Shown piece by piece: positions 2,306-37,023 of a stretch of 41,594 nucleotides of DNA; the stretch's first letter is position 1, and each line of letters starts with the position of its first letter. This DNA is from a virus. A program made the position numbers and the translations under genes. Location of the stretch: the IMG/VR virus record IMGVR_UViG_3300022696_000039, positions 1 to 41,594 of that record. The stretch is one strand, 5' to 3'. The notes under the pieces were generated by a model. That model was not told the origin of the DNA. It was given only the letters and a program-made list of their open reading frames with translations, and made no database searches.

Positions 2306-2842
2306 TTATCCTTTTGTGCAGTAGATCGCATCGTAATATTTGAAAATTGTATCAGATAGTTGTTCATCGGTGTCAGGTGATGCGTTGCCGATTGACGGCG
2401 TTGCTCCAACCGTTCGGCTGTAAATCTGGGCAAGATTATTACCGCCAGCTCCCGCCGAGAAAAGTCTATCGTTCTGCGTTCCGTCTGTGATCACAATGTT
2501 TGTTCCTATGCCAGCCGTTCCGGTTTCATAATCCATGTCGTGAGTATGCGTTAATCCCGTGTGGCTGTGGGCCGATGTGGTATGGGTATGAGCTACGGTC
2601 AAGCCCGTTGACACCGCATCCGTCCCGCCGGAGCCGACCCAGGAATCCACGACCCGAAGGAAGGCATCGTTTACATCCTCGTTCCGAATCCATCCAATCG
2701 GGGCCGAGCTTTGTGGGAACACCATTTTCGTTCCGCTTGCCAAATGATCGAAAGCGTCATTGTCAGCCAGGAGATTTAAATACTGATAAGGCAGGAGAGC
2801 CTTATAAGAAAAATATCCTGATGTCATATCGGTATAAGCCAT
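2306..2842 (-). CDS. Tail collar/short fibre protein, paralogue 3 (His-rich)
   Basis: 178 residues and the last of three tandem paralogues. It opens MAYTDMTS, has a collar-like block (ASGTKMVFPQSSAPIGW, near 35-51) resembling the phage tail collar motif GT..mF....aP.GW, and then three HxH pairs at residues 85/87, 92/94 and 99/101. The C-terminal third (TVGATPSIGNASPDTDEQLS and following) differs from its sisters. Trimeric fibre tips such as T4 gp37 coordinate metal through HxH motifs, so a metal-stapled trimeric tip is plausible. It probably binds the host surface, alone or with its sisters. Confidence 0.8.
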   Translation of the reverse strand: MAYTDMTSGYFSYKALLPYQYLNLLADNDAFDHLASGTKMVFPQSSAPIGWIRNEDVNDAFLRVVDSWVGSGGTDAVSTGLTVAHTHTTSAHSHTGLTHTHDMDYETGTAGIGTNIVITDGTQNDRLFSAGAGGNNLAQIYSRTVGATPSIGNASPDTDEQLSDTIFKYYDAIYCTKG

Positions 2843-3388
2843 TTATGCGTCCTTACTCGCCAAGATCACATCGGCATAGGCGAATTGAATATTTGTTAAA
2901 GCGGAAGCCGTTGTTCCGCCTGTACTGGCTCCGGTGACAGTTGCTGTGTTGTCATCCATGTTTCTGGTTGCGTAATTAATAAACGCCGAACCGCCAATCG
3001 TTCCTGTCTTTGTGAAAAGAAAGTTTGATGAAACAAAGCCATAATCAATAATGGCTTTGCTCGATGCGTTTGTTGAATTTAAAGAGTGACCATGAGCCCC
3101 TTCCGAGTGGTCATGGCTGTCGATGGTATGGGTATGAGCCAAGCTGACCGTCCCAGAAAGATTGGCTGAACCGCCCGTCGAACCGCCCGATGAGCTGACT
3201 ATGCGGATGGCGTGATCGTCTGACCCTGTGATCTTGGTGTATCCCGTTGGGGCTGATGCCTGATAAAAGATGTGAACCGTTCCCGATCTAAAAACATCGT
3301 AGGCATCGTTCTCGGCCAACTGTGCCAGCTTCGTCCAGGGAAGCAGGTCTTTGTAATCGAAGGTTCCTGTCAGATCAAGATAAGCCAT
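2843..3388 (-). CDS. Tail collar/short fibre protein, paralogue 2 (His-rich)
   Basis: 181 residues with the same plan as its neighbours: MAYLDLTGTF start, RSGTVHIFYQASAPTGY collar-like block near 35-50, a Gly/Ser stretch, and HxH pairs at 85/87, 92/94 and 99/101. The C-terminal part diverges (TKTGTIGGSAFINYATRN and following), then closes with a shared element of the form I.FAY.D.I...K. The start overlaps the stop of paralogue 1 by one base (TAATG), and the stop abuts the next start, so the three should be made together. Confidence 0.82.
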   Translation of the reverse strand: MAYLDLTGTFDYKDLLPWTKLAQLAENDAYDVFRSGTVHIFYQASAPTGYTKITGSDDHAIRIVSSSGGSTGGSANLSGTVSLAHTHTIDSHDHSEGAHGHSLNSTNASSKAIIDYGFVSSNFLFTKTGTIGGSAFINYATRNMDDNTATVTGASTGGTTASALTNIQFAYADVILASKDA

Positions 3389-3942
3389 TAGTCCTTCACC
3401 GCTATTATCGAATCGAGATATTTAAAAGTGATGTCCGAGATCGCATTGGAGATAGTTCCGGCATTGTCCGAGCTGTGATTCCCCGACCCTGCCTGGGTGT
3501 AATCGAAAAGCCGTCTGACAGTTGTTGAGCCGGAGGTTTCTTCATAGACAAGTTGGTTGTCGGAATCCGTTGTCACCGAATAAGCTCCTGTCGGTGGCGT
3601 TAATGGGGTTCCCGATTGTTCGGTTGTCATGTCGTGAATGTGGGAGCTTAAGGCGTGGGCGTGGGTCGTGGAATATGTATGGGTATGGCCCAAAGAGATC
3701 GTACCGCCTGGAACAGCCGAACCGCCACCCGTAGCTCCACCGCTTCCATCCACAACTCTCAAGGCCTGATTCGAGAAGCCCGTCTGCTTCGTCCATCCCG
3801 TCGGGGCTGTGGCTTGAGTGAAAAGCATGACCGTTCCAGAGTCCAGATGTTTGTATGCGTCATTATCGGCCAGCGTTTTAAAGTCCTGCCAGATGAAAAG
3901 CCTTCCCGATTCGAAGGTTGTTGTCATGTCTGTATAAGCCAT
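3388..3942 (-). CDS. Tail collar/short fibre protein, paralogue 1 (His-rich)
   Basis: 184 residues. It has the clearest collar-type block of the three (DSGTVMLFTQATAPTGW, residues 35-50), followed by a Gly-rich linker and HxH pairs at 86/88, 94/96 and 101/103. The end matches its sisters (ISDITFKYLDSIIAVKD). The block is characteristic of phage tail collar domains that sit at fibre or baseplate tips. It is coupled to the upstream tail protein gene by a one-base stop/start overlap at 3942. Confidence 0.83.
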   Translation of the reverse strand: MAYTDMTTTFESGRLFIWQDFKTLADNDAYKHLDSGTVMLFTQATAPTGWTKQTGFSNQALRVVDGSGGATGGGSAVPGGTISLGHTHTYSTTHAHALSSHIHDMTTEQSGTPLTPPTGAYSVTTDSDNQLVYEETSGSTTVRRLFDYTQAGSGNHSSDNAGTISNAISDITFKYLDSIIAVKD

Positions 3943-9003: not shown

Positions 9004-9759
9004 TTAGACCTCCTGTAAATTAAGCGTTCCCGTCAGCAAGTCCGGCCTTCCGGCTGTGAACATGGACATCAATGGGTCGTCTATAAATTGCACCTTCCAG
9101 ATATGTGGCATCGGTTTGTGCCAAGCCCCGTTGATGTAATTGCAGAGATAAAAAGTCTTTACCTCGACATGATACCGCCTAAATTCACTTAGCTGTTCGT
9201 GGCTTAAATATTGATTCCCCTGTAAGAGGAGCTTGATTGTTGACTTGGTGGTCAGGTATTCAGAGAGCAATTCTCCAAGCCTGTTGCGAGTCCTGCCTCT
9301 GTAAATGTTCCCAGGGATGACCGAATAAAGCGGGAACATATCGAAGTTGTACCTGTCCGTCGTTTCATTGGCATCAACAAGCGACCATTGTTCGTAGTCG
9401 AGTTCGATCTGATCTGTGGCCGATGTGTCCAGCCAGTAATGCCCGACTTCCGACCACGGGCTTGTATAGATGGAGCCGTTATATTCCCTGACTCGCCAGT
9501 ATCTTTTAGCGTCATCAACCTGGTTATCCGTGAAAGTGTAATTGGATACGCTGACCGTCGTGTCCACAAAGGTTGTCCGAAAATCCTCATAGAGAGAAAC
9601 CTGCAACTGATGGCTGACAGACGACGAATCGCCAGACCAGTCAAGCGTAATGGATGTGGTGTTGTAAAGAACAAAAATTTCTGGGGCCGGGTGATCGGTT
9701 ACAGCGACACCGTTCCAGGCTGTTGCGTTGTAGGCTGAACCATTAAAAGCGTATGTCAT
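9004..9759 (-). CDS. Putative distal tail protein with Fn3-like domain (251 aa)
   Basis: It follows the tape measure gene with a 4-base ATGA overlap, the position of distal tail proteins in siphoviruses. The N-terminal 110 residues look like a fibronectin type III fold: ITLDWSGDSSSVSHQLQVS, YTFTDNQVDDAKRYWRVREY and SPWSEVGHYW with typical W/Y spacing. The C-terminal half includes LLQGNQYLSHEQLSEFRRYHV and a KVQFIDDPL segment. The Fn3 reading rests on strand and aromatic pattern only. Confidence 0.7.
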   Translation of the reverse strand: MTYAFNGSAYNATAWNGVAVTDHPAPEIFVLYNTTSITLDWSGDSSSVSHQLQVSLYEDFRTTFVDTTVSVSNYTFTDNQVDDAKRYWRVREYNGSIYTSPWSEVGHYWLDTSATDQIELDYEQWSLVDANETTDRYNFDMFPLYSVIPGNIYRGRTRNRLGELLSEYLTTKSTIKLLLQGNQYLSHEQLSEFRRYHVEVKTFYLCNYINGAWHKPMPHIWKVQFIDDPLMSMFTAGRPDLLTGTLNLQEV

Positions 9760-11519
9760 GTTAAGGAACCTCTCTTTCTTTCAAATGGGCCGTTGGGATT
9801 TGATTGTGTCCACCGCCGGAGTTCCGGCACGATGCGACCTTTGATGAGCTGTTGCCATTTGCTTTGATCGCCCTCGATAAATTGGCCTGATATATTAACG
9901 GTGACATTCATTGAACCGCCGTCGGATTCCCCTCTGGCTTGCTCAACCAATGGCCCTGTGTTCATGGCATAGTTGCGGTTGCCTTTTGAGAAATGCTTAA
10001 CGGGAACAATGGCCTCCTCTCCGGCCTCCCCTGCAACATGGGTGATGCCAGACCGAAGCCCTGTGATCAAAGACGGCTCGGCTATGATACCGCCCGTCGC
10101 AAACCCGCCAAAGAATCTGTTGGCCGCACTAAATCCACCGCCAGCTCCTCCCGTCAATACCTGAAAAGCAATCCATTTGGCGATCATCTTGGCGATCTCC
10201 GCAATCACCGCCCTGGCGATATCCTTCCAGATGTTCTGGATGACATCGGCAAACTTCCGGCTCTCCATGATCATGTCGGCTACACCTTGGCCAAACTGGG
10301 CGAACATCTGATTGGCCGTGTCCATAGCAAAAGCCGTGTAATCGTATTGGGTTTCTTTTAAATATTCGGCCTTCTCTCTCTCGGCCTCCATCTGCTCGGC
10401 GTTTAATTTTTGCCATCGCTTCATTCGAACATCGGCAATTCGGGCCTGCTCCTGGTCGGCCTTATTGTCAGACTCGATCTTTTTCTTTGTGGTCTTGTCG
10501 ATCTCCTGACGCTTCTTTTCTTCTGTCTTTTTGGCGACTGTTCCGGATTCTTGGGATTTGTTTATAGTAGCCTGCCAACTATCAATCTGCCTGTTAAGAG
10601 AAGCCTTCACATCGTCAATATCGATCTTTAAAAGTTTGAAGATGGGGCCGAAGGCCAGCATACTGTTCGACATATCAAGGAGCCTTTCGGCAATACTTCT
10701 AACCGCCTCAAGCCCGACCCGTTTTAATGTTTCACCGAACCCGCCCCACATTTTCGTTTGATCCCTGATTAACTTGAGTGAGGTATCTAACTTTTCAATC
10801 CATGATGTGAGAACGGTGACAAGAGAGGTTCCCTCTCCAGCTATAAAACTTCCGATGGTTTCTTGAAGATCACCAAAGGCATTACCAAGAGCTTGCACTT
10901 GCCCAAGGGTTGTTTGCCTGACTGTTTCTGCCTGTCCTCCGAATAACTTGTTTATATTTTCAACAGCGCTAGACGCTCTCTCCGTTGATCCAGCAACTCC
11001 ATTAACCTCGATCCCATATCTGGTTAAAGCATTCGTTGTTGAACCAACCGATTTTGAAACAAGGTCGGCGGCGGCGTTAAGATCCATTCCCTTGGCTGTT
11101 GCTAAATCTAAAGTGGCCTTGGTTAAATCTTTAAGAGCCTGCCCTTCAAAACCAAAGGAAGCGATCAGGGATTGGGCGCCGATGATTGTTTCGTCTCCAA
11201 ACGTTGTTACCTTCTGGAGGGAAGACGCATAATCTTGAAGGTCTTTAGATGCCTCCTCACTAAAATTCCCTTGGTTCTTTAAGGATTGATTGAGCTTGGC
11301 GATAGCTTCTTCTTGGACACCGTAGGCGTGGATGACCTTGGCGACACCAGCCCCGACTCCGGCCATCGCTCCGGCAATAAGAGTTTTATTGTTGGAGATG
11401 AAGCTCTTGGTTCTTGAGCCAAATTTCTTTAAGCGATTTTCAGCACCTTTGAGATTGGTTTTAAATTTGTCGATCTTCGCCTGGACTTCAACAAATACTG
11501 TTCCCGCATCAGTTGCCAT
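9756..11519 (-). CDS. Tail tape measure protein (587 aa)
   Basis: The N-terminus (VFVEVQAKIDKFKTNLKGAENRLKKFG) is typical of tape measure proteins. It is followed by a Gly/Ala-rich hydrophobic segment near 46-62 and a long helical, Ala/Gln-rich body with the block AIAKLNQSLKNQGNFSEEA and later LIASFGFEG. A Lys/Glu/Gln-rich coiled coil lies around 330-390. A second hydrophobic patch (IARAVIAEIAKMIAKWIAF) is near 440-460. By the usual ~1.5 angstrom per residue rule the tail would be roughly 85-90 nm. It is preceded by the frameshifted tail chaperone genes and followed by distal tail genes. Confidence 0.93.
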   Translation of the reverse strand: MATDAGTVFVEVQAKIDKFKTNLKGAENRLKKFGSRTKSFISNNKTLIAGAMAGVGAGVAKVIHAYGVQEEAIAKLNQSLKNQGNFSEEASKDLQDYASSLQKVTTFGDETIIGAQSLIASFGFEGQALKDLTKATLDLATAKGMDLNAAADLVSKSVGSTTNALTRYGIEVNGVAGSTERASSAVENINKLFGGQAETVRQTTLGQVQALGNAFGDLQETIGSFIAGEGTSLVTVLTSWIEKLDTSLKLIRDQTKMWGGFGETLKRVGLEAVRSIAERLLDMSNSMLAFGPIFKLLKIDIDDVKASLNRQIDSWQATINKSQESGTVAKKTEEKKRQEIDKTTKKKIESDNKADQEQARIADVRMKRWQKLNAEQMEAEREKAEYLKETQYDYTAFAMDTANQMFAQFGQGVADMIMESRKFADVIQNIWKDIARAVIAEIAKMIAKWIAFQVLTGGAGGGFSAANRFFGGFATGGIIAEPSLITGLRSGITHVAGEAGEEAIVPVKHFSKGNRNYAMNTGPLVEQARGESDGGSMNVTVNISGQFIEGDQSKWQQLIKGRIVPELRRWTQSNPNGPFERKRGSLT

Positions 11520-11780
11520 TTACTTTCTCCTTTTGACCTTGCCACGCTTGACCCTCACTCCGGCAGTCCCAAGCTGTTGCGACAGAGGCTTGGAATCGGA
11601 TGGCTTCAAAATCCCTTTCAGTATCAACGACACAGGAGGAAGCTCTTTTATTTGTGCGATCAGTCCCGATATCAAGGGCCAGGTCAGCGAGTCGATCTCC
11701 GAAGTTGTCCATCCGTAACTAATGCCGAGCAAGTGATAAATAAAATATTCACTTAAGAAACCTGCGTCGGCTCCTCCTGT
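11520..11780 (-). CDS. Tail assembly chaperone, frameshifted extension (gpT-like)
   Basis: This frame has no well-placed start: only a TTG at 11732 without a ribosome binding site. It is open without stops back to the A7 run at 11780-11786 inside the upstream chaperone gene. A -1 slip there would append 86 residues (TGGADAGFLSEYF...) to give a ~224-residue fusion, as in lambda G-GT. It includes LGISYGWTTSEIDSLTWPL, a conserved-looking W-rich segment common in gpT-type extensions, and ends in a basic KRGKVKRRK tail. The tape measure ATG follows immediately. Confidence 0.8.
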   Translation of the reverse strand, partial: TGGADAGFLSEYFIYHLLGISYGWTTSEIDSLTWPLISGLIAQIKELPPVSLILKGILKPSDSKPLSQQLGTAGVRVKRGKVKRRK

Positions 11781-12193
11781 TTTTTTGCTTGGGCCGGATT
11801 TGTTTTTGTCAGCTCCTGGCCCTTCTGTCCTAAAAAATCTTGTAGCCCATTAATGACAATCATCTTCTCGACGATCTCCCTCATGTCCACGATTGACATA
11901 TTATCATCAACCCATTCCGGCGTAAGGAACGGATGTTCTTTTTTGCTGAACATTAACGGCATTATCTTGGGCAGATTTTCTTCAAAGATAATCGGGAACT
12001 GGAGAAAAATGCTTTGGTTGTCCATGTGAGAGAATTGGTCGATGGCGGTGAATACCACCTTCAGCAATTCCTTTAATCGTCCATAGGGGATTGGTTTAAG
12101 TTTAAGGGTCTCCCCCCCGATCTCCTTTTCAATGGACATACCTGGCTTTAGTTTTTGCTCTGTTGGCTTTGTGAGTTCTGGTGACTCAATCAT
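11753..12193 (-). CDS. Tail assembly chaperone (gpG-like)
   Basis: 146 residues, located between the tail tube region and the tape measure, where gpG-type chaperones sit. The fold is mostly helical, with segments KPIPYGRLKELLKVVFTAIDQF and DMREIVEKMIVINGLQDFLG. The C-terminal 20 residues are Gln/Lys/Glu-rich. A run of seven adenines in the phase A AAA AAA near the end would permit -1 slippage into the next frame. The start overlaps the methyltransferase stop (ATGA at 12193). Confidence 0.82.
   Translation of the reverse strand: MIESPELTKPTEQKLKPGMSIEKEIGGETLKLKPIPYGRLKELLKVVFTAIDQFSHMDNQSIFLQFPIIFEENLPKIMPLMFSKKEHPFLTPEWVDDNMSIVDMREIVEKMIVINGLQDFLGQKGQELTKTNPAQAKKQEEPTQVS
11780..11786 (-). 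promoter_or_regulatory. Programmed -1 frameshift site (A AAA AAA)
   Basis: On the minus strand the 0-frame reads GCA AAA AAA CAG, so seven adenines lie in the X XXY YYZ phase. After a -1 slip the frame continues ACA GGA GGA GCC with no stop until 11520. An AGGAGG immediately follows the slip site. The location nine codons before the chaperone stop and just ahead of the tape measure matches the conserved G/GT arrangement of long-tailed phages. Confidence 0.8.
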
Positions 12194-12726
12194 TTTTTGT
12201 CCCTCCGTTTTAGTATTCCAAGGCCGTTCCAGCCTTCGATTATTTGAAAATCCAATTTCTCCCTGACAGCGTAATAGCGACAGGCATCTCCCGCCCCTCT
12301 GTAAGTTGTGACATCATGAACAACAATCTGACCGTCCGAATTGAGCTTGGGCAAGTAGGTTCCGATCTCAAGGCTCACCTGCTCGTAGCTGTGAAGCGTG
12401 TCCAAAAAGATCAAATCAAACTGAAATGGATATCCCGCCTCCAATACCTTTGTCTCAATATCCTCAACATCGGTTGAATAAGCGTTTATAAAAGTCCAAT
12501 TGGGATGCCCAGAATAATGACGGCCACAGGCCTGGTTCTTATCCACAGAAAAGAGATGGCCGTCCGACCCCTCCACCCCAAGCAGGAGAGCCGTTGTGCT
12601 GTATCCGTCCCGCACTCCCAGCTCCAAGACCGAGCCGTAAGCATTCTTCATGAGATAGTCCATGTGGCCTTTGATATCAGACTCATGCTTGGACTTCTCT
12701 CTGTAATCCTTGCCGACATCAAACAT
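12190..12726 (-). CDS. SAM-dependent methyltransferase (Methyltransf_24/CmcI-like)
   Basis: 178 residues. Motif I is VLELGVRDGYSTTALLLG (33-50), an E.G...G glycine loop for S-adenosylmethionine. FDLIFLDTLHSYEQV (103-117) and GQIVVHDV (132-139) match the fDlifiDg.HsYe...G.iv.hD pattern of the CmcI/TylF/Methyltransf_24 sugar and small-molecule methyltransferases. No DNA or rRNA methyltransferase motif is seen. It is the last gene of a four-gene sugar cassette, coupled by TGATG to the GT2 gene and by ATGA to the tail chaperone. Methylation of an attached virion sugar is the natural inference. Confidence 0.85.
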   Translation of the reverse strand: MFDVGKDYREKSKHESDIKGHMDYLMKNAYGSVLELGVRDGYSTTALLLGVEGSDGHLFSVDKNQACGRHYSGHPNWTFINAYSTDVEDIETKVLEAGYPFQFDLIFLDTLHSYEQVSLEIGTYLPKLNSDGQIVVHDVTTYRGAGDACRYYAVREKLDFQIIEGWNGLGILKRRDKK

Positions 12727-13496
12727 CAGACCGCCACCTTCTTGTCAGTTTTAAGCTCTGGGAACTTATTAAAAAACCTTTGTCGATTCACGATAACCTG
12801 CTTATCTGCTAACATATCTTTTCGTCTTGTCGCCTTCCAAAAGTGATGGACATACACCGACCCCGTGATCAAGCTCCTCCATCCCGCCTTGTTCGCCCGA
12901 TAGCAGAAGTCCCTGTCCTCATAGCACCCGCCAGCATAGTCCTGATCGAATCCGTCCAACTGCTCAAAGACTTTTCTTTTGAACATCATGCAGAACCCGC
13001 TTACATAGTCGGCCACATACAGGTCTCGGTTCTTGGGCTTCTCCTGGGCTGGGATAGCGATGTTGGTGACAGGCCCAAGGATGCCCCACTTGTCGTTTGA
13101 GTTGATGATCTTGACCAGAGTCGAGAGCCAGCCAGGTTCGACAACCGTGTCAGAGTTCAGGATGAGGCCGTATTTGATATTGGGATTGCTCATCAGATAC
13201 CGCAGGCCGAGGTTCACTTCAGCCGAGAAGTTAAAGTCCTCCTGGTAATGGAGAACATTGATGGGGTGGTTCTTCTGGATTGACCGGAGATATGTTCTGG
13301 TGGACATGGAACTCATGTTATCCACAACGGTCAGCATATACGGATAATCGGTGAAAGACAGGACGGAGTGGAACGCTAACTTAAAGAATTTCAAGTTATC
13401 TCTCATTGGTATTACAATACCAACACTATTCGCCGGAGGGCTGTCCTTAGAGGGACTGATAGATGTCGGCCAATCGCCGTGCTGTGTTTCGGTCAC
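12726..13496 (-). CDS. Glycosyltransferase family 2
   Basis: 256 residues. The GT-A fold is evident: VGIVIPMRDN..FF..AFHSVL (25-46), VVDNMSS near 57, LNSDTVVEPGWL with the DxD-like NSDT (114-117), and the acidic catalytic block GGCYEDRDFCYRANKAGW (189-206) followed by VYVHHF. It resembles rhamnosyltransferase-like GT2 enzymes, which transfer sugars from nucleotide donors. The start is GTG at 13496, supported by AGGAGG six bases upstream. It overlaps the upstream GT gene by 50 bases. It belongs to the sugar cassette in the tail operon. Confidence 0.9.
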   Translation of the reverse strand: MTETQHGDWPTSISPSKDSPPANSVGIVIPMRDNLKFFKLAFHSVLSFTDYPYMLTVVDNMSSMSTRTYLRSIQKNHPINVLHYQEDFNFSAEVNLGLRYLMSNPNIKYGLILNSDTVVEPGWLSTLVKIINSNDKWGILGPVTNIAIPAQEKPKNRDLYVADYVSGFCMMFKRKVFEQLDGFDQDYAGGCYEDRDFCYRANKAGWRSLITGSVYVHHFWKATRRKDMLADKQVIVNRQRFFNKFPELKTDKKVAV

Positions 13497-14529
13497 TCCA
13501 GACCTCCTCTAAAAATTTGCGACCCTGCATCCCGATCTCTTTGGCATATTCGGGGTTGGCTACCAAGTCCATCAATGTGTCTTTCAACTCTGGAAGCGTC
13601 CTGGCGATCTGCCAGGGATGCGAGTCACCGATTCCCCAGAAGCGGTCAATGATGGCGAGGTTCTGATCATCCAATCCACAGATGACGGGCTTGCCAAGGG
13701 CGAACCCTTCCAAGCTCCCCAGGCCATAGTACCCTTGCATATGGTCAAAGATAACGTGGGCATGGCGTTTAATCCTCATGACCTTCTGAAAAGTCATGTC
13801 TTGAAGCGGGAAGTAATTGACAGGCTGGCTCCTGGCCACATAGCGAACCGCCTCCTCGATCTGGGCCACGTTCTTAAGGCTTGGGACGGATACGGTATGC
13901 GCCACGATGTATCTGGTCAGTCCTTTGGAATCGGTCAGCATCTTGTTTGTTCTACGTGGAACATAAAGAAGATCGTCCTGCGGTACGCAGTTCGGGAAGT
14001 ATTCAACCGAACAATGGGGCTTATAGAGAACCTCCAAGTCCGGCGTTGAGCAGAGAATCTTCCCGCCCCGCCCTTCCAAGTTCTTGCCGTTCTCAACAGG
14101 ATTGGCTCTCTCGTAAGGATGGCCGTGGATGTGATAAACGCATTTCTTTTTGTTTTTGGTATTTAAAAAATCTTTGATCTTCCAGGCTCGTCGCCTCGAT
14201 GATGTTAGCGGTAATTGAATTTCAAAATCTTCGGTGATCTTGTGAAAGTGGAGGATGTCGGCATCGAGTAGTAATTGCTCCAGCTCGTCATAGTAATCGT
14301 AAACCGTCCCGATGTCCTCTGGGTGTCCGAATACGTTTGGCTGGGAAGTGAAAATTCTGGCCTTCCAGTCTGTATGACGTTGTAATGCCTGACAGAGATT
14401 GTAGCCCGCCCCTGCTGGGTCTGTCGTCGTGATGTGGAGGGCCGTCGCCGTCTTTTTCGGAACGGTATCAAATCTGTCCACCTTCGGAACCTCCAGCTCC
14501 ACCCGATCTTTTTCAATAACGGCTTCCAT
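13447..14529 (-). CDS. Glycosyltransferase, GT4/GT-B-like
   Basis: About 360 residues. The C-terminal half has the GT-B signature region GLGSLEGFALGKPVICG (an E-containing sugar-nucleotide loop), then PELKDTLMDLVANPEYAKEIGMQGRKFLEE, the usual ending of family 4 enzymes. The N-terminal domain has LHITTTDPAGAGYNLCQALQ and KCVYHIHGHPYE. Proteins like this transfer sugar to acceptors such as peptides or glycans. The start at 14529 is chosen because GGGAGGA precedes it and because it reduces the overlap with the upstream gene; ATG at 14562 is possible. Confidence 0.88.
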   Translation of the reverse strand: MEAVIEKDRVELEVPKVDRFDTVPKKTATALHITTTDPAGAGYNLCQALQRHTDWKARIFTSQPNVFGHPEDIGTVYDYYDELEQLLLDADILHFHKITEDFEIQLPLTSSRRRAWKIKDFLNTKNKKKCVYHIHGHPYERANPVENGKNLEGRGGKILCSTPDLEVLYKPHCSVEYFPNCVPQDDLLYVPRRTNKMLTDSKGLTRYIVAHTVSVPSLKNVAQIEEAVRYVARSQPVNYFPLQDMTFQKVMRIKRHAHVIFDHMQGYYGLGSLEGFALGKPVICGLDDQNLAIIDRFWGIGDSHPWQIARTLPELKDTLMDLVANPEYAKEIGMQGRKFLEEVWSDRNTARRLADIYQSL

Positions 14530-15595
14530 TTTTTGAATCTTCCTCCCATTGTTTTCTCCCATCCTTGACGATTTTGCTCAAGTGAAAAAGAGTCGTCCGG
14601 CCATAGCTCAAGACGTTCGTGCAGAACTCGTTGATCGCCTGGGCGACCGTCATGCTCCTGAAATATTCTTTCAATAAGCCGTGAGCCGAGCAGTCAATTA
14701 TCTTGATTCGGAGTCCGTCGGTCAGGCCCGCCAGCCCCTCCTGATAGTTGTCCAGCTCTGGGTCAAGGCGGTAAACCGTCTGGCCGATCTTCTTGTCAAA
14801 TGACCGCTTTACTCTGTCGTCGTTGTCGTATAAGGTTTTATTCTCTTTCTTCCACCAGCCCCAGACATCCCTGTCGTCCTTCCCGTAGATGTAATCCTGG
14901 CATCTATACTTCCAGCCGTCGCCCCGCTTCTGGTAGCACAAGTCCATGCCAGCCGTCATGATCGGATTGCATCCCATCTTGTAGGCCAGCATTATTCCCA
15001 TGTTCCCGACGGTTCCGATAGAGGGAATGTCTCCGAGATGGGGATAGATGTAATGCAAAAGACGTTCGCTGAATACGTCCTTGGTATGCCATTGATTGAA
15101 AAACATCAGAGGCCCAGGCCAGGTCTTAATCGTGTCAGGATGGGTACAGGAGTTGGCAATCATCGGAATCTCCCTGGCTTCGGGAGGGAGATGACTCCAA
15201 AGGGTCTGCTGATCTTTCTGGCAGTCAAAGGAGATCACGATGTCAGGCTTGATTCCCTTGGCAAGAAGGGGCCGGAGAGAAGCGTCTGTGGCAATAATGA
15301 TTGCTCGGCCAAACGCCTCCCGCAGGGTCAAAATATTGTCATCAAGGCTGGGGCCAATCCCCACAACAAACGCTGGGATGTTTGCTCCGGCTCCCTCTAA
15401 AAAGCGAACCCCATCCGATCTTGAAATGACCGGATAGTTCTGCGCCGAATGTTTGGCCCAACGTAGAAGCCATGTGTCTTGGGCCTTCTCTGACATCGAA
15501 GCCGACTTGTCGCTTTTGATTGTTCGGATTCCCTTCTTGATCTGGACTCCGGCTTTCTCAAGCTCTTTAACCTGCAATTCCAATGGAGTTGGCAT
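14513..15595 (-). CDS. DUF115/MptE-like protein (Maf flagellin glycosyltransferase-like)
   Basis: 360 residues. Motif GIGPSLDDNI (79-88) is the nucleotide-sugar glycine loop of the DUF115 / MAF_flag10 family. DIVISFDCQ near 119-126 and GNMGIMLAYKMGCNPIMTAGMDL (~197-219) match its conserved C-terminal part. This family includes flagellin-glycosylating Maf proteins and the archaeal MptE enzyme, so a transferase acting on virion protein is plausible. It opens the sugar cassette, directly downstream of the tail tube gene. A 17-base overlap (or 50, depending on start) couples it with the GT4-like gene. Confidence 0.85.
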   Translation of the reverse strand: MPTPLELQVKELEKAGVQIKKGIRTIKSDKSASMSEKAQDTWLLRWAKHSAQNYPVISRSDGVRFLEGAGANIPAFVVGIGPSLDDNILTLREAFGRAIIIATDASLRPLLAKGIKPDIVISFDCQKDQQTLWSHLPPEAREIPMIANSCTHPDTIKTWPGPLMFFNQWHTKDVFSERLLHYIYPHLGDIPSIGTVGNMGIMLAYKMGCNPIMTAGMDLCYQKRGDGWKYRCQDYIYGKDDRDVWGWWKKENKTLYDNDDRVKRSFDKKIGQTVYRLDPELDNYQEGLAGLTDGLRIKIIDCSAHGLLKEYFRSMTVAQAINEFCTNVLSYGRTTLFHLSKIVKDGRKQWEEDSKNGSRY

Positions 15596-15636: not shown

Positions 15637-16410
15637 TTAGGAAGCCCCGTCCTCTTGGATAATCTCAAAGAGATTCTGCCCTTCCGGTTTGGTCGTATCA
15701 ACCAAGGCTTTGAAGCTGACGTTGTGCATGGTGTAATCGCCGGACTCCCGTTCATTGAAGGCCATAGCGAAGTCGGTGTTGGTCATGGCCTTGTAAAGCG
15801 TGATCTGCCAAGTCTTGCCAGCCGAATCCAAATGCGTATAGTCGAGCCGGAATGTGTTTGGGGTTTTGGTCTCTCCACCCGTCACAACCGCTTTGGCTCC
15901 CGCATCGGAGAAGTCGTATTCGACAGCCACATAGTCGCCGTCGCCGATAGACCCCGCACCTTCACGGCCAATGGCGAAAGGCGTTCCGCTTACACGGTAG
16001 TCTGTCCCAGAGGTGTAAGAAGTCTCCCTGTCCATCGAGGTTACTTTCAGCGTCCCGTAGGTCATCGACTCGGTTAAGGACGTTGCGTCGGTTCCGGTGA
16101 GCTTAACGATCTCCCGTTTGCGGATGGCTTTGGCTTCTGACTTGATGGCTTCATCAATGCCGAAGGCCCGTCTTAATTGTTCCACTTTGAGATCACAGAC
16201 TTCCGCAGTAAGAATGACCTCCTCGGAAGTGACCTCCCCTTTAATATCAGCCGTGTTGTTGCCTGGCCGTTGGTAGGCATAGTTCCTGGTGTATGCGAAA
16301 TTGACTGCGCCTTTGAGGTTGCCCACAAAAACATCGTCAATATACAAGTCGCCAATTCCCAGCAACAGTCGGCTTGGCTTTGCGTATGCGTTTTGGTTAT
16401 ATCCTGACAT
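15637..16410 (-). CDS. Major tail (tube) protein
   Basis: 257 residues in the tail-tube position between the tail terminator and the tail chaperone. The start MSGYNQNAYAKPSRLLLGIG is followed by DLYIDDVFVGNLKGAVNF and GEVTSEEVILTAEVCDLKVEQLRRAFG, then long beta strands with Gly/Thr/Ser turns: FRLDYTHLDSAGKTWQITLYKA near the end. It ends with EIIQEDGAS. The pattern fits tube subunits of long non-contractile tails; no sheath gene is present. Confidence 0.85.
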   Translation of the reverse strand: MSGYNQNAYAKPSRLLLGIGDLYIDDVFVGNLKGAVNFAYTRNYAYQRPGNNTADIKGEVTSEEVILTAEVCDLKVEQLRRAFGIDEAIKSEAKAIRKREIVKLTGTDATSLTESMTYGTLKVTSMDRETSYTSGTDYRVSGTPFAIGREGAGSIGDGDYVAVEYDFSDAGAKAVVTGGETKTPNTFRLDYTHLDSAGKTWQITLYKAMTNTDFAMAFNERESGDYTMHNVSFKALVDTTKPEGQNLFEIIQEDGAS

Positions 16411-16427: not shown

Positions 16428-16853
16428 CTAAATAGGGGCTTGAGCCTTCGGAATGACAAAGAAGCGAAAGCGAATATCTTTTCTCGACACCTCTCTCACC
16501 TCGTCATATTCATCCGGCCCTTCCCAATCGAACACAGAACGGACGGCCCCTAACTCCGTTAATCCTGTGGTCGAAAAATTGTATCCGTCAAAAAGTCTTT
16601 TCATCCGGCTCATGATGTCCACATACTGGTTCGACCAGATGCCGAACTCGTAAGTGTATTCCCAAGTCTGCGCCCAGTCGCCCGTCACCGTCCCAGGGAT
16701 TCCGACCATCTGGTAATAGCGGAGCTGTGGGCTGTTGTTGTCAGCCTGGAGCTGGAAGCCGTAGCCGATGCGGGCTGTCTCGCTGTTGAAATAGTTTAAG
16801 AGAGTTGCATCACCGATCAGCCGTTGGTATATCAGTTCGTCGCACTCTTTCAT
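16428..16853 (-). CDS. Tail terminator-like protein (141 aa)
   Basis: The sequence has a mixed alpha/beta pattern with an N-terminal helix (DELIYQRLIGDATLLNYF) followed by QMVGIPGTVTGDWAQTWEYTYEFGIWS and RMKRLFDGYNF, then DIRFRFFVIP. This corresponds to the DUF3168/tail terminator type: a helical start, antiparallel strands, and a long helix between strands. Position is immediately before the tail tube gene and after the gp10-like gene. It caps the tail tube and joins it to the head in related phages. Confidence 0.72.
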   Translation of the reverse strand: MKECDELIYQRLIGDATLLNYFNSETARIGYGFQLQADNNSPQLRYYQMVGIPGTVTGDWAQTWEYTYEFGIWSNQYVDIMSRMKRLFDGYNFSTTGLTELGAVRSVFDWEGPDEYDEVREVSRKDIRFRFFVIPKAQAPI

Positions 16854-22462: not shown

Positions 22463-23527
22463 TTAAGCCTGACACTCGTAAACGTACCGAGTATCCACAG
22501 CACCACAGCCTCCGTAGAAGCTGACTTTGAACTGTTGGATGATGTCTCGGTTGAATCCTTCCTCGGTATCCTGTCCGACACGGCTGAAGGTTTCGAGGGG
22601 CCAGATTTCTTCCCATCGGAACTGCCGTTTGAACCCACCGTACCACCAGGTCGTTGAACCGGAAGCGAGGTAAGGGTTGATCACGATGTCGAACATATTT
22701 CGAGCAAGGTTGATGTCGAGGTTCGCCGTTCCCAGGCTCCCGTACTCGTTGCGCATCAGCTTTTCAGCCGTCGGCCACAAGTTAGCAGGAATCAAAAGAA
22801 CAGGTCGGTCTCCCATCACCCAGATCGGTTTGTCCTCCTCGTCTTTCTTTTCGAGAAGGGCGACATGGACGTTCTCCCACCCAGTCGTTCCAAGCGAGTT
22901 GGAAGTCTTAAGGTTGGAGTTGCCGGACGCATACAGCTCGCCAAGGTCATAGGATGTCGAAGCGGAATCGACCACGGTGTTCATGATCAATTCTTCCCGA
23001 TACCTTGCACCTTCCTCGCCGAGCATCCTGGCTCTGTCCATCAGCTCTCCGGTCTGGTCAAAGAAAATGCTTTCTTTGGTCAGGTCGAGCATACCGCCGT
23101 ACTTTTTATTTTGGATACGAACATACTTTTCGTCAGGCGGGGTGACTTGGGAATAGGGTTCCCGTTCATAGACCCGCTTGATTTCACCGATAGCCTTCCA
23201 GCCAGCGACTTTGGATTCCTTCACTCTGGAAGGGACAGTTCGAACCAAGTTATCTCCGGCTTTCGGGAACGCCTTATAAGCGTCAATGATAACCTGCGAG
23301 ATGATTTCTCCAGCGATGGTTGGGAACGCAGACGAGGTAAGATTTTCTTCCAAGTCCCGTTTTTCAACCAACTGCTCCCACAATCCCTTAAAGGAGATGC
23401 GGTTTATGTTTAACTTTTGAGACTCCACAAGGCCTTTGACCTTTTTGGCAATCTCGGCATGAGCAACTTTCGGGTTGCTGTGTTTTTTCTCGTATGCCTC
23501 GACGAGGTTTACTAATTCTCTGGACAT
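22463..23527 (-). CDS. Major capsid protein (HK97-fold)
   Basis: 354 residues. After a helical N-arm (~1-50) the protein has the HK97-like features: EENLTSSAFPTIAGEIISQVIIDAY, GDNLVRTVPSRVKESKVAGW (the E-loop side), and the P-domain region REELIMNTVVDSASTSY. The A-domain follows (VLLIPANLWPTAEKLMRNEYG, FDIVINPYLASG) with TWWYGGFKRQFRWEEIWPLE near the end. It sits after the protease/scaffold and decoration genes as expected. A strong ribosome binding site (AAGGAGG) precedes the ATG. Confidence 0.9.
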   Translation of the reverse strand: MSRELVNLVEAYEKKHSNPKVAHAEIAKKVKGLVESQKLNINRISFKGLWEQLVEKRDLEENLTSSAFPTIAGEIISQVIIDAYKAFPKAGDNLVRTVPSRVKESKVAGWKAIGEIKRVYEREPYSQVTPPDEKYVRIQNKKYGGMLDLTKESIFFDQTGELMDRARMLGEEGARYREELIMNTVVDSASTSYDLGELYASGNSNLKTSNSLGTTGWENVHVALLEKKDEEDKPIWVMGDRPVLLIPANLWPTAEKLMRNEYGSLGTANLDINLARNMFDIVINPYLASGSTTWWYGGFKRQFRWEEIWPLETFSRVGQDTEEGFNRDIIQQFKVSFYGGCGAVDTRYVYECQA

Positions 23528-35778: not shown

Positions 35779-37023
35779 TTATTGAATTCGGGCCTTCTGT
35801 CCCGTCAATTTCTCCCATCTTTCTATGATGACATCGACGTAATGGGGGTCGAGTTCCATCATATAGCAGGCCCGATTGGTTTTTTCACAGGCGATCAGGG
35901 TTGAGCCGGAGCCACCGAATCCATCGTAAACGACAGAATTTTCACGGCTTCCATCGGTTATCAATTTCGCCAAAAGTTCTATTGGTTTCATTGTTGGATG
36001 GAGTTCTGATTTGAGGGGTCTGTTAAATTCTAAAATCGTCGTTCCGCTTGGCCCATAAAATTTGTGGTGATTCTTCCAGCCATACATAACAAACTCATGT
36101 TTTGAATTATAATCCTTTCTCCCCAACACATGATTGTTTTTTACCCACACCAAATAATCAGACCAAAAAAATCCAGAATCTTCAAAGGCAATCCTTAAGC
36201 TATGCAGTTCTTTACTAGACATAAAAATATATGCGGTGTTGTAATCGGCCATCGGGATAATCGATAAAAAGGAACAAAAGAATTTTCGATAATCTTTTAT
36301 ATTGTCGTTTTTAATTTTTTCTTGGATTCCATTCCCTTTATCAAATTTATTCAGCATTTCATTTTTGTTCGAATAATCCACCCCATATGGAGGGTCGATA
36401 CAAACCATGTCAATCTCTTTGCCGTTCACCAATTTTTTTACATCTCCATCGCTTGTGGCATCTCCGCAGAGCAAACGATGATTCCCCAGGACATAGAGAT
36501 CGCCAATCTTTGACTTGGCTTCCGGTCTTACTGGGGGAGCCTCATTGTCGGCATCGGTAATATCCGGCATCCCTTCTTTGAACGCATCCCGCAGAGATTG
36601 GATGGCTTCCTCATCGTAGCCTGTCAGGTCTAAGTCGGTTCCGGCTTTGTCCAGCTCTTTGATCAGAGCATCGACATCTTCAAACCTAACCTCGGCCAGC
36701 TCCGCAATCCGGTTGTCGGCCAGCATATCGGCAAGCTCGGCCTGGTCGGACGGATAATCTTGTTTATCAATCGGGACTTCTTTGACTTTGAGGAGCTTGG
36801 CAGAGGCAAGTCTGGCGTGGCCCTTTGTTATAAAGCCTGACCTTTTGGATACGACGATTGGGTTTCTCCAGCCCTGCTCTTTGATAATCTTCGAGAGGAG
36901 CTTGATCTGGCTTTCGCTGTGCGTGTTTGGATTCCTTGGATTTTCTTTGAGGCTGGCTGTGGAGACGATCTCATCAAAGGAGCAGTAAACCGAAACCCCA
37001 TCAGCCTTTTTAGTTACTACCAT
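35779..37023 (-). CDS. ParB-like domain fused to DNA methyltransferase (414 aa)
   Basis: The N-terminal ~90 residues have a ParB/Sulfiredoxin-like pattern: LKENPRNPNTHSESQIKLLS, GWRNPIVVSKRSGFITKGHAR, KEVPI. The C-terminal part is an N6-adenine or N4-cytosine methyltransferase: DPPYG (210-214, motif IV) precedes VVYDGFGGSGSTLIACE (364-380, motif I), the beta order. No matching restriction enzyme is present, so it probably protects the phage DNA or marks it. The fusion is common in phage genomes. Confidence 0.92.
   Translation of the reverse strand: MVVTKKADGVSVYCSFDEIVSTASLKENPRNPNTHSESQIKLLSKIIKEQGWRNPIVVSKRSGFITKGHARLASAKLLKVKEVPIDKQDYPSDQAELADMLADNRIAELAEVRFEDVDALIKELDKAGTDLDLTGYDEEAIQSLRDAFKEGMPDITDADNEAPPVRPEAKSKIGDLYVLGNHRLLCGDATSDGDVKKLVNGKEIDMVCIDPPYGVDYSNKNEMLNKFDKGNGIQEKIKNDNIKDYRKFFCSFLSIIPMADYNTAYIFMSSKELHSLRIAFEDSGFFWSDYLVWVKNNHVLGRKDYNSKHEFVMYGWKNHHKFYGPSGTTILEFNRPLKSELHPTMKPIELLAKLITDGSRENSVVYDGFGGSGSTLIACEKTNRACYMMELDPHYVDVIIERWEKLTGQKARIQ

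Follow-up and report, generated by a model that had tools for sequence, protein, structure and literature searches.

The window, by which we mean the whole 41,594-base virus record analyzed here, carries a tail operon read on the minus strand. In the coding direction, the order is tail terminator-like gene, tail tube, DUF115, GT4-like, GT2, methyltransferase, chaperone-like gene, and tape measure (Table 1). A sequence-only reading of this DNA had reported a cassette of four genes (DUF115/MptE-like, GT4-like, GT2, and SAM methyltransferase) between the tail tube and tail chaperone genes, coupled by overlaps to each other and to the chaperone gene. We found all four open reading frames intact at the positions in Table 1, with the GT4-like protein divergent and the methyltransferase belonging to Methyltransf_24. 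Tail tube and DUF115 are spaced by +41 nt, and the DUF115 ATG is preceded by GGGAG. The reported coupling was also borne out: the DUF115/GT4 and GT4/GT2 junctions are each −50 nt if the first possible start codons are assumed, the GT2/methyltransferase junction is −1 nt, and the methyltransferase/chaperone junction is −4 nt. Between the window and its relative L005, the four cassette genes gave pN values of 0.19 to 0.30 and pS values of 0.77 to 0.84, the latter near saturation; the four genes are under purifying selection. Because of this constraint, and because many phages share this gene order and location, the cassette is not a chance run of open reading frames.

Table 1. Features of the tail operon and of DUF115 regions in distant phages
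Feature	Positions	Strand	Evidence or remark
Tail terminator-like gene	16428-16853	−	
Tail tube (major tail protein), proposed acceptor	15637-16410	−	PHROG 807, 4e-8; DUF115 directly downstream in 14 lineages
DUF115/MptE-like, Maf/PseD-like; proposed initiating O-glycosyltransferase	14513-15595	−	PF01973, 2.5e-35
Divergent GT-B, GT4-like glycosyltransferase; optional among relatives	13447-14562	−	Profile versus PimB', 3e-4
GT2 glycosyltransferase	12726-13496	−	PF00535, 1.3e-13; NSD and ED motifs intact
SAM methyltransferase (Methyltransf_24), proposed capping enzyme; optional among relatives	12190-12726	−	PF13578, 7.8e-14
Tail chaperone-like gene closing the cassette	11753-12193	−	Position before tape measure; kept in relatives
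Tape measure	9756-11519	−	PHROG 27166, 2e-12
PseF-like plus DUF115 regions	L024:335-4585; L046:1068-3522; L049:5663-7826		Near terminase genes

The chaperone-like gene had no family match in Pfam and PHROG scans and is so named because of its position and size. Between it and the tape measure gene, positions 11520-11732 hold a TTG-opening frame, and similar small open reading frames lie there in two relatives (L017 and L036); the frame is possibly a second chaperone product made via a frameshift. Elsewhere in the window, three consecutive open reading frames at 2306-3942 look alike by eye (an AYxDxT... start and a His-rich middle) and are probably paralogous tail fibre-like proteins, and a DNA methyltransferase with a ParB-like N-terminus lies at 35779-37023 (PHROG 498, 3e-125). 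An open reading frame at 373-978 has a weak Sulfotransfer_2 match under the cut-off (PF03567, E=0.002), which could be a chance match or mark a sugar- or protein-sulfating enzyme.

To place the DUF115 protein, we compared a profile of 12 family members with solved structures. The profile matched 5mu5 across the whole domain (1.9e-14) and archaeal MptE (8sd5) at 5.9e-6. The structure file labels 5mu5 uncharacterized; we take it to be Maf from Magnetospirillum. One Maf of that genus, with a pfam01973 domain, has been solved (PMC11339370). The best NCBIfam model for the window protein was the PseD domain (1.7e-10), which scored 40 bits where the cut-off is 670 and matched 190 residues in a protein of about 360. 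These profiles place the DUF115 protein closer to the cytoplasmic O-glycosyltransferases of flagellin, Maf/PseD, than to archaeal MptE, in agreement with the link to flagellin-glycosylating enzymes drawn in the earlier reading. Like them, it matches the PF01973 domain along its length; unlike Maf, it is too small to hold complete N- and C-terminal domains of the kind described for that protein (PMC11339370). Because it is too short for a full Maf and falls below the PseD cut-off, we file it as Maf-like rather than as Maf. A PHROG search gave no match for the window protein, and AlphaFold models from three-sequence alignments (mean pLDDT, 40.7 for DUF115 and 36.8 for the GT4-like protein) were too poor for use.

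Among the four family assignments, the GT4-like label is the weakest. A Pfam scan of the window protein gave no match, its relative in L015 matched PF00534 weakly and under the curated cut-off (E=0.015), and a five-member profile matched the GT4 enzyme PimB' (3oka/3okc) over its C-terminal part only. The GT2 protein scored 51.6 bits against PF00535 (cut-off, 23.3) and has NSD and YED motifs, corresponding to the DXD-like and ED motifs. The methyltransferase also matched the rhamnosyl O-methyltransferase family PF04989 weakly (3.7e-4), and its profile had a weak match (1.9e-4) to 6g7d, presumably a mycobacterial sugar methyltransferase. No membrane-spanning stretch was found in any of the four proteins, which fits the expectation for cytoplasmic protein glycosylation.

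Next, we examined how the cassette is distributed among relatives, which are uncultured contigs throughout and are named here by L-numbers. With the tail tube alone as the query, 10 IMG/VR contigs representing seven distinct phages were recovered, and DUF115 lay directly downstream in all of them. Once lineages found with DUF115 queries were added and duplicates were counted once (L012/L013, identical over 17 kb; L010/L011 and L025/L026, the same or nearly so), the order tail tube and then DUF115 was present in 14 lineages, the window and 13 others. The check proposed in the sequence-only reading, a search of related phages for the same genes beside the tail tube, was thus positive. Pairwise DUF115 identity is mostly 32 to 58%, with the closest pair at 72%. 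DUF115 distances correlate with tail tube distances, and common descent would give the same correlation; it would also explain the fixed gene order within the clade. The cassette is a fixed trait of this phage lineage, and we rejected the idea of a recent moron because it is fixed in the clade and has diverged together with the tail tube.

The cassette is not the indivisible four-gene unit first described. DUF115 and GT2 were present in all 11 phages with a contig spanning tail tube to chaperone, the GT4-like gene in six (the window, L005, L017, L015, L025, and L032), and a methyltransferase in six, the L015 copy being of a different class (Methyltransf_23). The core is therefore DUF115 plus a GT2-fold protein, and the GT4-like and methyltransferase genes are optional. 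The GT2 motifs (NSD/NAD and ED) were retained in each of the six phages that have the GT4-like gene, and the ED motif was lost in five of the six without it (L011, L014, L021, L028, and L031); three of these five have also lost the first-motif Asp. In the sixth, L012, which has the methyltransferase, the motif state was intermediate. This pattern is expected for one joint pathway, although the five ED-less phages possibly share one ancestor, so that the loss may be a single event. It suggests that the chemistry of GT2 is tied to the GT4 step, and that there is a further reason for retaining the GT2-fold protein. Three phages have a small open reading frame of about 90 to 107 amino acids between DUF115 and the next cassette gene (L012:11807-12130, L015:9786-10058, and L028:5844-6116).

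More distant phages carry DUF115 genes in other settings. In L036, DUF115 (29% identity to the window protein) lies on the opposite flank of the tail tube gene, between it and the tail terminator gene, and in L052 (22%), it stands alone between the tail tube and a chaperone-like gene. These arrangements argue for a link to the tail tube itself and not merely an inherited gene order. As with Maf/PseD, DUF115 relatives are also linked to genes for acid-sugar donors. In three unrelated lineages (L024, L046, and L049/L050), the gene immediately upstream of DUF115 encodes a PseF-like CMP-sugar cytidylyltransferase; the best NCBIfam model for these upstream genes is TIGR03584 (3e-22 to 2e-29, all under the equivalog cut-off), and PF02348 is above its cut-off. 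In L039 (7422-11597), the DUF115 protein is Maf-sized at 595 amino acids, and a NeuB/PseI-like gene follows about 1.7 kb downstream (PF03102, 5e-17). The DUF115 proteins of L039 and L043, at about 600 residues, are closer to Maf in size.

Taken together, these results incline us, by a narrow preference, to read the cassette as a module of phage genes for cytoplasmic O-glycosylation of the virion, the likeliest target being the tail tube. The earlier proposal of virion protein glycosylation, with the tail tube as first candidate, is supported to that extent. Gene content, order, conservation, fixed neighborhood, and Maf-like family placement are established here; activity, donor, target, and step order are inferred. 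Judging from gene order, the late tail operon would make the tail tube and the cassette together, as the sequence-only reading had also held. The Maf/PseD-like DUF115 protein would then transfer a first sugar directly onto Ser/Thr of unassembled tail tube protein, probably from a host CMP-activated acid sugar of the nonulosonate or Kdo type. Where present, the GT4-like and GT2 proteins would extend the sugar and the methyltransferase would cap it, after which the modified subunits would polymerize. The gene order of DUF115, glycosyltransferases, and methyltransferase parallels these proposed steps, a parallel that is suggestive only.

No donor gene was recognized among the window proteins scanned, so the donor would come from the host. 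The PseF- and NeuB-like neighbors of other phage DUF115 genes offer indirect support for a CMP-activated nonulosonate. We also inspected the aligned tail tube proteins for an acceptor site, and none could be named because Maf has no known sequon (PMC11339370). A more specific version, which we regard as a tentative possibility, is that the Maf-like enzyme adds an acid sugar before polymerization and that tube assembly or stability depends on this sugar, in the way that Aeromonas filaments require Maf for their assembly.

The proposed module would resemble Maf/PseD in being presumably cytoplasmic and in having as its substrate the subunit of a self-assembling tube. Unlike Maf/PseD, its neighbor is a tail tube gene rather than a flagellin gene, and donor genes are missing from the window proteins scanned. 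Mycobacteriophages (Che8, Corndog, and Myrna) glycosylate their capsid and tail tube with their own glycosyltransferases, and cluster O mycobacteriophages have an O-methyltransferase gene followed downstream by three tandem glycosyltransferase genes (PMC12619734, PMC11600133, PMC12363180). The window is similar in having phage-encoded glycosyltransferases and a methyltransferase, with the glycosyltransferase genes linked to structural genes. In contrast, those accounts make no mention of a DUF115/Maf-like protein, and the glycosyltransferase genes of the F1 phage Maravista lie near the genome 3' end (PMC11256854), whereas the window cassette lies between tail tube and chaperone. A tblastn search of 50,697 phage records found nothing that matched either the DUF115 or the methyltransferase protein, and tblastn against phage records gave no mycobacteriophage match for DUF115, GT4-like, GT2, or methyltransferase. 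Scans of genome contigs with short near-exact peptide patterns of DUF115 and GT2, whose reach is close relatives only, found no relatives, and plasmid records gave one partial DUF115 match (Paenibacillus) and ordinary GT2s. Our search of the open-access literature turned up no publication that deals with DUF115 in phage tails. The concept behind the earlier suggestion of a possibly undescribed modification pathway is not new, because enzymatic tail tube glycosylation has already been described in mycobacteriophages.

The closest rival is that the target is another virion protein (tape measure, distal tail, fibre-like, or head) or several, because DUF115 also lies near other structural genes: it adjoins terminase, portal, and capsid genes in L024, and in L041 and L042 it has a methyltransferase gene before it and other structural-type genes after it. 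No relative of the tail tube was detected in the latter two, whose target may therefore be a different one. Mycobacteriophage enzymes likewise modify the capsid besides the tail tube (PMC12363180). However, DUF115 is always an immediate neighbor of the tail tube gene, on one side or the other, throughout the window clade and in the distant phages L036 and L052, and we consider a different or wider target a minority prospect. The cassette might instead alter host surface glycans late in infection, blocking superinfection or aiding release, with its place in the tail operon a matter of timing only. Serotype-changing phage glycosyltransferases are known (PMC12619734), and surface-sugar synthesis commonly uses the GT2 and methyltransferase families. 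This idea is less likely because the enzymes are soluble, lacking membrane segments, and are fixed in tight, conserved linkage beside the tail tube; moreover, no flippase or lipid-carrier gene was recognized in the window, and, among known functions, the one closest to the core protein is the direct glycosylation of proteins. Nor was the cassette seen linked to host surface genes in two genome contig scans, whose short near-exact peptide patterns have little reach. We judge host surface modification to be distinctly unlikely.

The retention of a GT2 gene in the five phages that have lost the ED motif would suit DUF115 and GT2-fold proteins that now act mainly as tail-tube-binding assembly factors, their sugar chemistry secondary or lost, and Maf binds flagellin even without a donor (PMC4065374). 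However, the GxGxSL(D/N) motif and other conserved residues are retained in all DUF115 members, and the window has four intact genes with the GT2 motifs present, which makes an assembly role of this kind improbable. DUF115 could also be a true MptE, a 6-hydroxymethyl-7,8-dihydropterin pyrophosphokinase carried as a metabolic gene; the two share PF01973 and its Pfam name, the MptE structure is matched by the profile, and the tail tube and major capsid (22463-23527) profiles weakly match the archaeal Methanoculleus virus L4768/Blf4 (7e-11 and 1.5e-11, respectively), a distant relationship. Against this, the Maf match is far better, and the neighbors are glycosyltransferase and methyltransferase genes rather than pterin synthesis genes. 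We rejected MptE as a first choice, Maf being nearer by profile similarity, and regard it as highly improbable.

Modification of a virion protein, the tail tube being the leading candidate, would supply a likely function for phage DUF115 genes, and the series from two to four genes would be a compact test set for the growth and decay of a pathway. If this reading is true, virion glycosylation extends beyond mycobacteriophages to a separate environmental phage lineage that uses a different enzyme class. It would also tie phage tails to bacterial flagella, as two self-assembling tubes modified by related enzymes.
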